From NCBI GenBank assembly GCA_013178315.1, contig JABLWX010000057.1:1-33757 (forward strand): a stretch of DNA of 33,757 nt, read 5' to 3'. Below the pieces are notes generated by a model that worked only from the letters and a program-made list of their open reading frames with translations, ran no database searches and was not told where the DNA came from. This document shows positions 21,378 to 27,630 of this stretch, piece after piece. The stretch is from Candidatus Aminicenantota bacterium (GTDB taxonomy: Bacteria > Acidobacteriota > Aminicenantia > Aminicenantales > Saccharicenantaceae). Both the position numbers and the translations under genes were made by a program. Each line of letters begins with the position of its first letter. Within the stretch, counting starts at the first letter, position 1.

Positions 21378-22979
21378 TTATTTCTTTTTTCTGAAGCGAT
21401 AGGCCGCCCGGATAAAAGAGCTGAACAGCGGATGCGGCTCCAGCGGCCGCGACTTGAATTCCGGGTGGAACTGGCAGCCGAGAAACCAGGGATGTTTCTT
21501 CAATTCAATTATTTCCACCAGGCCATGCTCCGGGTTTTTCCCGGAAACCACCAGGCCGGCTGCGGTGAGTGGTTTTTCGTACTCGGGATTGAACTCATAG
21601 CGATGGCGGTGGCGCTCGCTGATGGCTTCGCTCCTGTATATGTTGTAAGCCAGGGTGCCCTTTTTAAGCAGGCAATTATAAGCCCCCAGCCTCATGGTCC
21701 CGCCCAGGTCGGAATCTTTTCGCAGCAACCGCCACAGGCGGAAAATCTTGTGCGGTGAACGTTCGTCAAATTCCTCGCTGTGCGCGCCCTTCAGGCCGGC
21801 CACGTGGCGGGCAAACTCCACCGTGGCACACTGCATGCCCAGGCAGATGCCGAAAAAGGGCAGGCCCTTTTCCCTGGCATACTGGATGGCCTTGATTTTT
21901 CCCTCCACCCCGCGCTGACCGAATCCGCCAGGCACCAGAAGTCCGTCCTTGTTCCTGAGAATCCGGGCCGGCTGGCCCCGCTCCAGGTCCTCGGCTTCAA
22001 TCCAGTCGATGTTTACCCGGACCCGGTTGGCCAACCCCCCGTGGTCCAGTGCCTGGTACAGGCTCAGGTATGAATCATGAAGCCCGATGTATTTCCCGAC
22101 CATGGCAATGTTGACTTCACCTTCCGGATGATGCCGCCGCCAGACCAGCTCCTGCCAGCGCCCGAGGTCAGGCTGCCTGGCCTCCAGGGACAGCTTCTTC
22201 AGTATGATCCGGTCAAGGCCTTCGGTGGCGAAGTTCAGCGGAATGTCGTAGATGGAAGGCGCGTCCACGGCGGTGATGACCGCTTCCAGCGGGACGTTGG
22301 TGAACAGGGCTATCTTGCCCTTGATATCGGCCGGCAATTCCCGGTCGCTCCGGCAGAGCAGAATGTCCGGCTGGATACCGATGGCCCGCAGCTCCTTGAC
22401 GCTATGCTGGGTGGGCTTGGTCTTGAGCTCGCCCGAGGTTCCAACGTAAGGAACCAGGGTCAGGTGGATGAACAGGGTATTTTCCAGGCCCAGGGACAGC
22501 CTCATCTGCCTGATGGCTTCGAGGAAAGGCTGGCTTTCGATGTCGCCCACCGTTCCGCCGATTTCCACGATGACGATATCATTGTTCCCTGCCACCGAGT
22601 AAAAGGCGTTCTTGATTTCGTCGGTGACATGTGGAATCACCTGGACGGTCTTCCCGAGGTAGTCTCCCCTTCTCTCTTTTCTGATGATGGCTTCGTAGAT
22701 CTTGCCGGCCGTCCAGTTGTGAAGCCTGCTGGTCCGGGTGGAGGTGAAGCGCTCGTAGTGCCCGAGGTCCAGGTCGGTTTCGGCCCCGTCATCGGTGACA
22801 TAGACTTCACCGTGCTGAAAGGGGCTCATGGTGCCGGGGTCGACGTTGAGGTAGGGATCAAATTTTTGCAGGGTGATTTTATATCCATGGGATTCCAGTA
22901 AGAGCCCGATGGAAGCTGCAGCAATCCCCTTTCCCAGGCCAGAAATCACACCGCCGGTTACGAATATAAACTTACTCAT
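21378..22979 (-). CDS. pyrG: CTP synthase (glutamine-hydrolysing)
   Basis: Converts UTP to CTP using ATP and glutamine. The 533-residue length fits the family. The N-terminal synthetase domain begins with '[18 protein letters not shown]', the signature start with its P-loop; the C-terminal class I amidotransferase domain has the cysteine nucleophile in 'GICLGMQCA' and ends with the histidine/glutamate motif 'HPEF'. The frame is open 10 codons further (to 23009) but that would place the start at the predicted transcription start (about 23005), so the ATG at 22979 is preferred; it also gives the conserved N-terminus, with a GGAAAGAAG site upstream. The promoter TTGAGC-N17-TATAAT lies at 23012-23040. 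It is first in a four-gene run with kdsC, manB and manC. Confidence 0.97.
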
Positions 22980-23011
22980 CTCGGTCTTCTTTCCGTGATT
23001 ATTTGACATTG

Positions 23012-23040
23012 ATTATAAAACTATTCTCTCCGCCGCTCAA
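23012..23040 (-). promoter_or_regulatory. pyrG operon promoter
   Basis: On the minus strand TTGAGC (23040-23035), a 17-base spacer and a perfect TATAAT (23017-23012). Transcription would start near 23005, leaving a leader of about 26 bases before the ATG at 22979. Confidence 0.75.
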
Positions 23041-23755
23041 CCTTCGCCCCGGAGATCCTTGCCCAAATCTGGCAATATCCAGGACCCGAGTTAAAAACAT
23101 GACTTATTGCCATCTGGCCCAGTCTTAACCGCCCCGAGTCGCAACCGGGCAAGGGCACCAGAACTCGCGGGCTGAAAATATTAAGAAAGACATCCTTTTT
23201 ATGGCAACCAGGCCGGGCTGTTAGCCTGGCAAAGGACCGAAAGCCGCACGGAGCTCTTTACCCGGAAAGCCATTTTCAAAAGACCCGGGCCCCTCACCGG
23301 CTTTTAATTCTCGCCGCGGGGAACCTCCGCGTGGTCATTTTTCCCCATAAAATTTACGCTATAAGTCCGACAACAACGATAATTAAACGCAGGCGAAGGA
23401 GCTCGGTGGTGACGTCAAGAGACCATAAATTAACTAAACACCGTGCTCGGCCTGCAAGCACTTTAAGAATTTCAAGCGCCGCTGGCCGGCCCGGGCGAGC
23501 TACAGCCGTCGCCACGAGTTAATCAAGGCTCCCGGCAAGGGGGCACGGCCGGCTAACATATGAATACATATTCATATATCAGGTGATTGAAGGCGGTCTA
23601 ATATATGAACACTCATTCATATATCAGCAGTTCTAATTCTCCTTAACATATGAACGGTTATTCATATATTAGGGCCCGATGGAACTGAACAGCTCGCCTT
23701 ATTTGATTAACTGGCAGGGCCAGGAAATGGCAATGGTCGTCAACCGGCCGGGACT
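23041..23755. other. Gene-free region between pyrG and the bactofilin gene
   Basis: About 715 bases without a convincing protein gene on either strand. The frame at 23331-23522 (+) is basic, low-complexity and has no ribosome binding site. The region carries the pyrG promoter at its left edge and an array of three palindromes at 23554-23672. No tRNA, known riboswitch or other RNA was recognised, though the remaining GC-rich stretches could fold. Confidence 0.55.
23554..23672. repeat. Three 29-bp palindromic direct repeats with an exact 45-bp period
   Basis: Units at 23554-23582, 23599-23627 and 23644-23672, separated by two unrelated 16-base spacers. Each unit has the form TAAY-ATATGAAY-N4-ATTCATAT-ATYAG: 8-bp arms (23558-23565/23570-23577, 23603-23610/23615-23622, 23648-23655/23660-23667) around a variable 4-base centre. 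The arms are conserved while centre and spacers vary, which points to a binding site for a dimeric protein used three times on the helix. It lies 84 bases beyond the end of the parA-parB-bactofilin run. Spacers of 16 bases rule out a CRISPR array. Confidence 0.9.
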
Positions 23756-24157
23756 TCAGGCCTGCTGCTTGACTCCCGTGGTCTCTTGAGGAGTGACGGA
23801 AACCTCGGTGGTCTGACAGCTGGCTTCCAGGTAGGCTCCCTCTTCCACCACCAGGCGTGGCGTAATCAGCGAGCCATACACCCGGCCGCGGTTATGGACC
23901 TCAATTCTTTCTCTGGCCTGGAGATTTCCCCTTATTTCTCCGTTTATGATAAGCTGGCCGACTTTAACATCGGCCTCAACTTTACCTTTTTCGCCGATTA
24001 TCAGCATGGCGTCAGAAAAGATCTTGCCCTGGAAATAACCTTCTATCCGAAAAGAGCCCTTGAAATTCAATTCGCCTTTAAGTTCGGTCCCGTGATCAAT
24101 CAGACCGGCCAGACGGGATTCTTCCACGATTTCTCTCCCTTTTTCTTTTTCTTTCAT
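23756..24157 (-). CDS. Bactofilin (polymer-forming cytoskeletal protein)
   Basis: A 133-residue bactofilin, which self-assembles without nucleotide into cytoplasmic or membrane-bound filaments. The core, residues about 18-115, is a right-handed beta-helix built of short repeats with regular small hydrophobic steps ('LKGELNFKGSFRIEGYFQGKI', split by Gly and Val). The N-terminus is charged ([10 protein letters not shown]) and the C-terminal ~20 residues are Thr/Gln rich and probably disordered. Its ATG overlaps the stop of parB (ATGA), so translation is coupled to parB. In Myxococcus, bactofilins position the ParABS segregation machinery, which fits this linkage. It is the last gene of the mnmE-mnmG-parA-parB chain, and the palindrome array follows. 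Confidence 0.92.
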   Translation of the reverse strand: MKEKEKGREIVEESRLAGLIDHGTELKGELNFKGSFRIEGYFQGKIFSDAMLIIGEKGKVEADVKVGQLIINGEIRGNLQARERIEVHNRGRVYGSLITPRLVVEEGAYLEASCQTTEVSVTPQETTGVKQQA

Positions 24158-25002
24158 TTTTTCGCTCCTTTTATCTTATCATAAATGCGGTTGAGGTCGT
24201 CCAGAGAAAAATAAAATATCCTGATTGCGCCTTTGTTGCGGTTGCCGGAGATGGTTACCTTGGTCCCAAGAAACCTGACCAGCTCTTCTTCAACGGCTCT
24301 CAGGTCGGGGTCCTCCAGGCTCTTCTGGGCCCGAGGCGGTTTCTCCCTGTATCTCTGAACCAGCTTTTCTGTTTCCCTGACCGATAGCTGTTTTTCGACC
24401 ACCAGCCGAGCTGCCTGCTGCTGCAGCTCGGTTTCTTCCAGGGCCAGTATGGCCCGGGCCTGCCCCATGGACAGCTTTCCTTCCAGTATGTAATTTTTTA
24501 CTTCCTCTGGAAGTTTCAACAACCTCAGGTAGTTGGCCACAGAAGCCCGGTCCTTGCCAACCCTATCGGCGATTTCCTGCTGGGTTAGCCCGAGCTCTGA
24601 GCTTAACTGCTGAAAAGCCTGGGCAATTTCCAGCGGATTCAGGTCCTCCCGGTGAATATTTTCTATCAGCTGAATCTCAAGCTGCTTATCTTTGGTGAGG
24701 TTTCTGATGATCACCGGGATGGAGCGCAGGCCAGCTTTCCGGGCAGCCCGCCATCTCCTCTCGCCAACCACTATGCGGTAATAATCATCCTCGGGCACCA
24801 CCAGGACCGGCTGTATTATTCCGGTTTCCCTGATGGAACGAGCCAGTTCCTCAATAGACTGGTCGTCAAAAATGGTCCGTGGTTGCTGAGGATTCGGCTG
24901 AACCTTGTCTATTTCCACCTCAGCATAACGGTCTTCTTTAAGGATTCCAAATTCTTCGGGAATAAAGGCCCCCAGTCCCTTTCCCAGTGCTTTCTTGGTC
25001 AT
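24154..25002 (-). CDS. parB: Chromosome partition protein ParB
   Basis: CTP-dependent DNA clamp that loads at parS and spreads to form the partition complex. The 282 residues include the N-terminal ParA-activating '[10 protein letters not shown]' (4-13), the CTPase domain with the 'GERRWRA' box (about 78-84) and the '[12 protein letters not shown]' box (about 113-124; the usual Gln is His here). A helix-turn-helix region follows ('[20 protein letters not shown]', about 138-157), then a C-terminal dimerisation domain. Start and stop both overlap neighbours by ATGA (parA upstream, bactofilin downstream). A perfect parS site lies about 760 bases upstream, in mnmG. Confidence 0.96.
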
Positions 25003-25754
25003 TTCTTCATCAACTCCTCTGCCAGATTCATGTAGGCTTCGGCCCCCTTCGATTTCGGGTCGTAGATGATTACCGGTTTCCCGAAGCTGGGAGCCTCAGC
25101 CAGCCTGATGCTCCTCGGTATTATGGTGTTGAGGAGCACCCCTCGCAACGAATTTTTTATTTCGTCGGCCACCTGCCTGGCTAAATTAGTTCTCTCGTCA
25201 AACATCGTCAAGAGAATGCCTTCTATGTATAGCTGCGGGTTGAAATAGGTCCGGACCATGTCCAGGGTATGGAACAGGTCGGGAATTCCTTCCATGCAGA
25301 AAAACTCGGCTTGAACCGGGATCAGAATCGAATCGGCCGCCGACAGGGCATTGATGGTCAGGAAACCCAGCGAAGGCGGACAATCTATCAGGATAAAATT
25401 GAACAGTTTCCTGGCTTCCTGGAGGGCAACTTTCAGCCGTTTTTCCCGGCCTTCTATCTGGTAAAGCTCGGCTTCTGCCCCGCTCAGTTCTGGTGAACAA
25501 CCGCACAGGAAAAGATTATCCAGCGCTGTTTTAGCCAGGCATTGCATAACATCCTGCCCGTTGAGCAGGGCCTGGTAAATCCCTTTGCCTTTTTCCTTGG
25601 GGTGGCCCAGACCAACCGTGGCCATGCCTTGAGGGTCGAGGTCCACGATTAGAACCCGCAGGTTCTTCAGGGCCAGGGAGGCCCCGAGGTTGATGGTGGT
25701 AGTGGTCTTGCCCACACCGCCTTTTTGATTGGCTACAGCAATAATCTTATTCAT
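24999..25754 (-). CDS. parA: Chromosome partition ATPase ParA (Soj)
   Basis: Deviant Walker ATPase that drives ParB/parS segregation by dynamic DNA binding. 251 residues from the ATG at 25754; this start gives the conserved '[20 protein letters not shown]' N-terminus with the KGGVGKTT motif at residues 11-18. Other family motifs are '[10 protein letters not shown]' and '[14 protein letters not shown]'. The frame is open to 25814, but the extra 20 residues include 'MFHVEH', which is simply the translation of the parS palindrome, so the longer start is rejected. The ATG overlaps the mnmG stop by 8 bases (ATGAATAA), giving translational coupling, and no separate strong ribosome binding site is seen. 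The parS site lies just before it. Confidence 0.96.
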
Positions 25755-27630
25755 CTGGCTCGCATGTTCCACGTGGAACATTATTCCCGAGGCCCTTTTT
25801 CCTGATGACCTCAAGATATAGATAAATATTATAGACAGCCGCTGGCGTAATTCCAGAGATTTTTTTAATCTGGCCGATGTTTTCTGGCCTGTTTTTTTCT
25901 AATTTCTCCACCTGTTCCCTGGTCAGGCCCGGGATTTCCCGGTAATTTACATCCCGGGGAACGGGCAGGTTATCAAGCTTCATTATCCTGGCGACCTCTT
26001 TCTCCTGCTTTCTCAAGTAGCCTTCATACTTAATTTCGGACTCAATAAACCTTATTTCTTCCGGGTTGAGCTCGAACGGAACCTCTATTTTTTCTAACAG
26101 CATTTCCCAGCTTATACGCGGCTTTCTCAGGTAATTGACGGCCGGGATAGACTCTCCTTTCTCATCTTTGAGTTTTTCACGGCCTAATAAATCCATTACT
26201 CTTTTTATTTTCTCCTGTTTTTTCAGGAAATTCTGGTAATCCTGCTCGCTGACCAGCCCCAGCTTGAAACCATAGGGCAAAAGCCTCTGGTCAGCATTAT
26301 CTATCCTTAAATTGAGTCGATATTCAGCCCGGGAAGTAAAAAGCCGGTAAGGCTCATCCACCCCGAGCGAAATCAGGTCGTCTATCAGCACCCCTATATA
26401 GGCCTCGTGCCTGCCCAGGATAAATGGTTCCCGGCCCCTGAGATTCAGGACGGCGTTCACTCCGGCTACAAGTCCCTGGGCCGCCGCTTCCTCATATCCC
26501 GAGGTTCCGTTTATCTGCCCGGCCAGAAATAAATTCTTAAACCTCCTGGTTTCCAGGGTGGGCTTCAGCTCGGCCGGGGAAACCGCGTCGTACTCAATGC
26601 CATAAGCTGGCCTCAGGATGCTGGCCTGGTCCAGACCGGGGATGCTCTGCAATATTTCCTTCTGGACTTCATAGGGAAGGCTGGAAGACAAACCGTTAAT
26701 ATAAATCTCAGAAGTGTTCAGGCCCTCCGGCTCCAGGAAAAACTGGTGGCGCGGGTGGTGGGGGAATTTCACCACCTTGTCTTCAATGGAGGGACAGTAC
26801 CTGGGGCCAATTCCCTTAATTTTGCCGCTGTAAAGGGGGGATTTATCCAGGTTCTTCTTGATTACCTGGTGGGTCCTCTCGTTGGTGTATCCCACATAGC
26901 AGATAACCAGATTCTTGAGCGTCCTTGTAGTCTTCAGGGAAAAAGGCACCGGGTCGTCATCCCCGGGTTGCGGCCTGAATTTTTCCCAGTCTATGCTGTT
27001 CCTGTCAAGGCGCATCGGGGTACCGGTCTTAAGCCTCAGGACCTTAAAGCCGCACTCTCTCAAAGATTGGGCCAGCTCGATTGCTGGGGGTTCGTTGGCC
27101 CTGCCGGCCGGGTAGCTGTTCAGTCCAATATGAATGAGCCCGTTAAGGAAAGTCCCCGGGGTGAGGATTACTGCCCCGGCTTTTATTTTCGTTCCGTCCT
27201 GGCAGATAACGCCTGTTACCCTGTCCCCATCAAATATCAACCGGGTAACGACTGCCTGGAGCAGCCTGAGGTTCCTGGTTTCTTCCAGCCATTTCTTCAT
27301 GGTCAGGCGGTAGGCAGCCTTATCGCACTGGGCCCGCGGGCCCTGGACCGCCCCGCCCCGGCTTCTGTTCAGAAGGCGGAAATGAATGCCGGCCTCGTCG
27401 GCCAGAAGGCCCATCAATCCGCCCAGGGCATCAATTTCCCTGACCAGGTGACCCTTGGCCAGCCCGCCTATGGCCGGATTGCAGGACATCTGGGCTATGG
27501 TTTCCAGGTTAATGGTTATAAGGCAGGTTGAGGCTCCCATCCGGGCCGAGGCCGCGGCCGCTTCGCAGCCGGCATGCCCGGCCCCCACGACCACCACCTC
27601 GTATTCCTCGGCAAATCTTTCCTGGCTCAT
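25747..27630 (-). CDS. mnmG: tRNA uridine 5-carboxymethylaminomethyl modification enzyme MnmG (GidA)
   Basis: FAD-dependent partner of MnmE that makes the cmnm5 group on U34 of several tRNAs. The 627-residue length is normal. The N-terminal dinucleotide fold is '[17 protein letters not shown]' (about 11-27); '[13 protein letters not shown]' and '[12 protein letters not shown]' are typical MnmG blocks, and the helical C-terminal domain contacts MnmE. The last residues 'VPRGT' followed by 'CEPDE' are unusual: they are encoded by a perfect parS palindrome (25765-25780), so the C-terminal tail is shaped by a DNA site. The start overlaps the mnmE stop by ATGA and the end overlaps parA by 8 bases. 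Confidence 0.96.
25765..25780. promoter_or_regulatory. parS chromosome partition site
   Basis: TGTTCCACGTGGAACA, a perfect 16-bp palindrome (18 bp if the flanking A and T are included). It differs from the Bacillus consensus only by a symmetric T-to-C/A-to-G change also accepted as a half-site in Pseudomonas. It lies in the final codons of mnmG, 11 bases before the parA ATG, inside a parA-parB locus. It would load ParB. Confidence 0.93.

Follow-up and report, generated by a model that had tools for sequence, protein, structure and literature searches.

Candidate ArsR/SmtB-type operators in triplicate beside parAB, and like sites across the chromosome, in Candidatus Saccharicenans

Proteins of the ArsR/SmtB family are a textbook example of metal sensors that act locally. 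Other sequence-specific systems mark partition loci or whole chromosomes: sopC of plasmid F lies beyond a parB-type gene and is built of tandem repeats that carry inverted repeats, Noc is a relative of ParB, and SlmA has sites that are excluded from the terminus. Operators of the ArsR/SmtB family are 12-2-12 inverted repeats (PMC8790569, PMC5658604), and those described consist of a single repeat or two, sited at the beginning of the gene they regulate or close to it (PMC8790569). SlmA has 24-52 SBS sites per nucleoid (PMC3573117). Noc has sequence-specific NBS sites dispersed round the chromosome (PMC4331003).

Here we describe an array of three inverted repeats in a window of 33,757 nucleotides (the whole stretch of DNA analysed, from contig JABLWX010000057.1) of a Candidatus Saccharicenans genome, G000, and compare it with related genomes. 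The genomes are draft metagenome assemblies, the gene calls are home-made and crude, and the analysis is entirely computational. On balance we lean towards reading the array as three adjacent operators for an ArsR/SmtB dimer, within a chromosome-wide network of ~50 sites that would mostly mark the DNA at fixed positions along the borders of genes.

The array and its neighbours

The array consists of three 28-bp dyads, 45 and 45 bp apart from start to start, between the bactofilin gene and pyrG. Sites 1 (TAACATATGAATACATATTCATATATCA, 23554..23581) and 2 (TAATATATGAACACTCATTCATATATCA, 23599..23626) were assigned as ArsR/SmtB-type dyads by pattern match and consensus. Site 3 (TAACATATGAACGGTTATTCATATATTA, 23644..23671), assigned by pattern match, occupies the genus-wide best-conserved position and lies ~85-88 bp past the bactofilin stop codon; all three are given without strand. 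The preliminary description had reported these three starts, the 45-bp period and the variable centres and spacers, and all of this was borne out. Searching the window with ATATGAAY-N4-ATTCATAT at ≤3 mismatches gave 6 matches, the three sites on both strands, against 0.24 expected, and none of 100 shuffles reached 6. The array is the sole tandem cluster detected in G000, and an Rfam scan of the window matched no family.

The bactofilin gene (23756..24157, minus strand; Pfam PF04519) closes a parA-parB-bactofilin run, and the array lies just past its 3' end. Upstream in the run are parB (24154..25002, minus strand; Pfam) and parA (24999..25781, minus strand; Pfam and gene call). The canonical parS TGTTCCACGTGGAACA, at 25765..25780 and given without strand, stands apart from the array, as the preliminary description had held. 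We take the parAB neighbourhood to be typical of replication origins, and in G009 the GC skew changes sign near the parAB/array locus. The next downstream gene is pyrG, encoding CTP synthase (21378..23009, minus strand; Pfam), with a likely promoter, TTGAGC-17-TATAAT, at 23012..23040 on the minus strand that is conserved in relatives. More than 500 bp separate this promoter from the array, which thus lacks the placement of a promoter operator, close to where a regulated gene begins; a role as pyrG operator was rejected because the likely promoter is too distant.

The expectation that the array follows parB and bactofilin in relatives held for most genomes that have an array, but the 45-bp period proved not to be general. 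The first site lies 84-93 bp past the bactofilin stop in G000, G014, G011, G004, G009, G010 and G002, and in these genomes the distance from array to pyrG varies from ~420 to 870 bp. The spacing is 45/45 in G000, G011 and G014, 48 in G015, 44 in G009, 26 bp in G010 and G002 and 67 bp in G005, and G004 has one site alone; strict 45-bp phasing was rejected, since the period is not conserved among relatives. No site was found at the bactofilin locus in G003, G013, G006, G008 or G001. The last three have neither the ArsR gene described below nor the array and retain the bactofilin locus, and in G006 no substitute palindrome was found there.

A genus-restricted set of sites

With at most one arm mismatch the same dyad occurs ~50 times in G000, scattered singly apart from the array (49 matches at one mismatch; 64 at three mismatches, against 7-9 for the control). 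The control pattern, the dyad read backwards, gave zero matches at one mismatch. The consensus spans ~28 bp, TRAY-ATATGAA-Y-RR-YY-R-TTCATAT-RTYA, and the copies are unrelated beyond those bases. It matches the 12-2-12 inverted-repeat geometry of ArsR/SmtB operators (AACATATGAACG-GT-TATTCATATATT). The motif is sharp, with 7 nearly invariant bases per half-site and a flat profile outside, an invariance that is partly inflated because the sites were picked as near-perfect matches; even so, loosening the search to three mismatches brought in few further sites over background. By eye, the outer positions 0 and 21 vary independently (T-A 26, T-G 10, C-A 8, C-G 5), as expected for the half-sites of a protein dimer and not for an RNA stem; a hairpin or RNA element was rejected, as these positions show no covariation. 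The earlier reading of the repeats as dyad sites for a dimeric regulator stands as far as protein-dimer operators are concerned, but in place of the TetR-like binder then suggested, one of the ArsR/SmtB family is likelier.

Outside the genus Candidatus Saccharicenans there are 0-2 sites per genome. All carriers in the genus have 25-58 sites except the early-branching G012, G003 and G013, which have 9, 13 and 19. Positions are widely shared: 43 of the 48 sites in G014, and 25 of 37 in the more distant G009, occupy a gap bounded on both sides by orthologues of the genes that flank a G000 site. Sites shared in place with G000 number 4 of 19 in G013, 2 of 13 in G003 and 1 of 9 in G012. In 8 of the 9 G000-G009 pairs examined, the sequence beside the site mostly aligns no better than shuffled sequence, and the dyad persists in these pairs with a changed centre; L075 is an exception with a conserved promoter-like flank, and L048 and L065 show weak similarity on one flank. 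No conserved sequence was found beside the examined convergent sites between G000 and G009, so that no conserved ncRNA was seen there, and a hidden conserved RNA beside convergent sites was rejected on the same unalignable flanks (L075 excepted). Beside one site (L075:760-1190, on contig C9 of G000, and L206), the upstream region is conserved to G009 and carries ACACAATATATTGTATAGGT-type boxes, which resemble NrdR boxes, ahead of a 742-aa gene.

Of the 44 G000 sites that lie in gaps, 10 are between convergent genes, 7 between divergent and 27 between tandem ones, compared with 18, 32 and 50% by gap length. The deficit in divergent gaps has P 0.014 and the convergent excess is not significant, under a null that is approximate because gap lengths were taken from regions selected for containing sites. 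Over the genome, placement is mixed and shows no bias towards promoters. Among comparable G000-G009 cases, the distance to a stop codon was kept in 20 and that to a start in 11, and tandem gaps alone give no clear preference. At L035:5049, L052:5090 and L068:4802 the adjacent gene has its predicted start codon inside the dyad, at the ATG of ATATGAA, likewise in G014 and G009, and placement is operator-like at arsR itself, L034, L049 and L063. A few dyads fall inside predicted genes; those at L042:5021, L045:5051 and L072:5025 are conserved in G009 too, and may reflect either coding constraint or faulty gene calls. The Pfam-scanned neighbours, assorted housekeeping and other genes, showed no functional theme. 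No regular spacing or clustering of sites was found along contigs, the distribution being like random in G009 and G014. A nearly site-free stretch of ~400 kb was seen in G009 (contig C10, ~216-632 kb; L296-L315 cover 230-630 kb), in an assembly of unordered contigs; there is no GC-skew switch in it, and thus it does not look like the terminus.

The ArsR gene that accompanies the sites

Four HTH_5 genes are present in G000, and the top scorer is an ArsR-family gene of 138 aa at C65:24651-25064, outside the window. Its product matches PF01022 (1.6e-15), NF033788 (87.9 bits, cut-off 55) and the SmtB chain 1r1t (E 4.8e-13), and by these profile and structure-sequence matches it has an ArsR-type winged-helix DNA-binding domain. 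The AlphaFold model, which is of low confidence, shows the expected helix order with residues 92-138 unstructured; the tail of the protein is rich in lysine and varies among orthologues. A dyad of 12-2-12 form lies in the gene's own promoter, 20 bp ahead of the start codon. The dyad also precedes the arsR orthologues of the genus wherever upstream DNA was covered, and ArsR homologues in G020, G029 and G035. These three genomes have a single site, directly upstream of a homologue with a CVC box, which is followed, by eye, by an ArsC-like frame in G020 and a permease-like frame in G029 and G035. A perfect site precedes an ArsR homologue in G026, where the gene is interrupted by a stop. Single copies of ATATGAAGATATATTCATAT in G019, G023 and G022 (L027, L028 and L029; two other genera) lie, by eye, just before a radical-SAM-like frame and not before arsR.

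Gene and sites occur together. An arsR orthologue (E <1e-30) is present in 12 of 12 many-site congeners (G002-G005, G007, G009-G015) and in none of the 6 site-less genomes (G001, G006, G008, G016, G017, G018), which have nothing or weak paralogues (Fisher P 5e-5, phylogeny not corrected for). In the pyrG tree, which leaves out G016 and G010, the site-less G001, G008, G017 and G018 form one clade, and G006 falls, with starred support, within the carrier clade. G006 has neither the gene nor the sites and thus seems to have lost the two together. The missing arsR of G001 and G008 is less secure because these assemblies are only 74% and 63% complete, which does not weaken their total absence of sites. 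The tree places few independent events behind this co-occurrence, roughly a single gain and a single loss. Taken with the promoter dyads, the comparison makes it highly probable that a dimer of this ArsR (C65:24651-25064) binds the dyad sites.

The ELCVC metal box is absent from most carriers, which have ELCVG instead (ELCVR in G004), so the box expected of an As(III) sensor was not found in them; the change from C to G amounts to loss of one cysteine of the arsenic box. CVC is retained in the early-branching G003, G012 and G013 and in the homologues outside the genus, and the G007 protein is truncated. Since ELCVG is found in metal sensors too, as ELCV(C/G)D, ArsR may sense a metal other than arsenic. 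The shift from CVC to CVG appears tied to the lineage with most sites, a link that is suggestive only, because ELCVG occurs in metal sensors and the shift is essentially one event. A site at L039:5081 lies 80 bp before a gene for an SO_0444/SaoE-like efflux permease, divergent from an MgtE-like gene and ~8 kb from arsR, and is possibly a remnant of the original ArsR target.

Possible roles and comparison with known systems

Genome comparison shows a network of sites that is conserved, mostly intergenic, restricted to the genus and tracks one ArsR gene. In the mechanism that we propose, an ArsR/SmtB dimer would occupy each dyad, and at most sites the bound protein would be a fixed mark at gene borders and not a classical promoter repressor. 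The three adjacent sites close to the presumed origin of replication would be the densest or strongest landing place for ArsR, which probably still acts as a repressor at the arsR promoter and at the smaller number of sites that lie close to gene starts. That the main role of bound ArsR is positional, architectural or insulating, and not promoter repression, we put forward tentatively. With a little more reserve we suggest that an arsenic-type ArsR may have come to act over the whole chromosome in an architectural or positional role, its operator multiplying from the single copy at the arsR promoter to ~50 fixed intergenic sites and the As(III) cysteine pair being lost in the site-richest lineage, while the lysine-rich tail may contact DNA or partners.

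An ordinary large ArsR regulon, in which every site represses a nearby promoter, including those of unannotated sRNAs or antisense transcripts, is in our judgement rather unlikely. ArsR-family proteins are repressors, and the arsR promoter and several start-proximal sites (L034, L049, L063, L035, L052, L068) fit such a regulon, as does the site before the efflux gene; the site edges resemble a weak -35/-10 pair, and with home-made gene calls, unannotated small genes may occupy the gaps. However, convergent genes flank 10 of the 44 gap sites and fewer sites than expected fall in divergent gaps, the examined convergent sites have no conserved ncRNA next to them in the comparison with G009, the neighbours lack a common function, and the likely pyrG promoter is too far from the array to be served by it. 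It is improbable that another protein binds the dispersed sites and that the arsR-promoter site is shared by chance or crosstalk. The centre of the G000 arsR site, GATATA, does depart from the common Y-RRYY-R, and further proteins could share the phylogenetic pattern of ArsR, but the site before arsR, both in carriers and in genomes of other genera, has arms that match exactly over 14 bases, and arsR and sites co-occur and seem to have been co-lost.

The preliminary description had envisaged a sopC-like centromere for ParB, that is, a second site here for partition or anchoring, with ParB or the bactofilin as its partner. We now regard this as very improbable, even with the only tandem cluster in G000, the near-constant distance from the bactofilin stop and the parAB neighbourhood in its favour. 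The locus persists without an array in G006, G008 and G001, where ArsR is missing, which leaves a ParB-dependent centromere unsupported; moreover, the same dyad recurs ~50 times elsewhere, and a canonical parS is present. These scattered copies answer a check that the preliminary description had set: they do argue against a locus-specific site, but the corollary attached to them, a mobile palindromic repeat, is not supported. A mobile or selfish repeat of the REP/MITE kind could give many dispersed, mostly intergenic copies confined to one genus, yet we give it hardly any credence, as the copies share nothing beyond ~28 bp, lack hairpin-type covariation at positions 0 and 21, and occupy orthologous positions, with differing centres, among diverged species.

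The favoured reading, ArsR/SmtB operators within a network of mostly fixed marks, hints at a metal-sensor repressor that has become a chromosome-wide DNA-marking protein. A search of one literature library with narrow terms found no paper linking the ArsR family with nucleoid-associated or genome-wide binding, with ChIP-seq or convergent genes, or with dispersed palindromes or chromosome organization. Candidatus Saccharicenans forms a natural series in which to study how a repressor of local reach turns into a protein of the whole chromosome, with ~50 near-perfect sites at gene borders gained within one genus, graded across species and lost with the gene.

The array is also a caution, since its place beside parB makes it tempting to misread as a centromere. 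Like sopC, it is made of tandem inverted-repeat units beyond a parB-type gene; unlike sopC, its site is genome-wide, its spacing is variable, and it is missing wherever ArsR is missing though the locus remains. Sequence-specific sites dispersed over the chromosome are shared with Noc and its NBS, but Noc is ParB-related and the candidate binder here is ArsR-type. With the ArsR/SmtB operators of smt, zia and nmtA the sites share the dyad geometry, the TGAA/TTCA core and a dyad in the ArsR-family gene's own promoter, and they differ in being ~50 in number, mostly off promoters and conserved in place across species. The known parallel is SlmA with its SBS, a TetR-family nucleoid occlusion factor in which, as proposed here for ArsR, a one-domain type of repressor has come to mark DNA throughout the chromosome, although SlmA belongs to a different protein family and reads a different motif.
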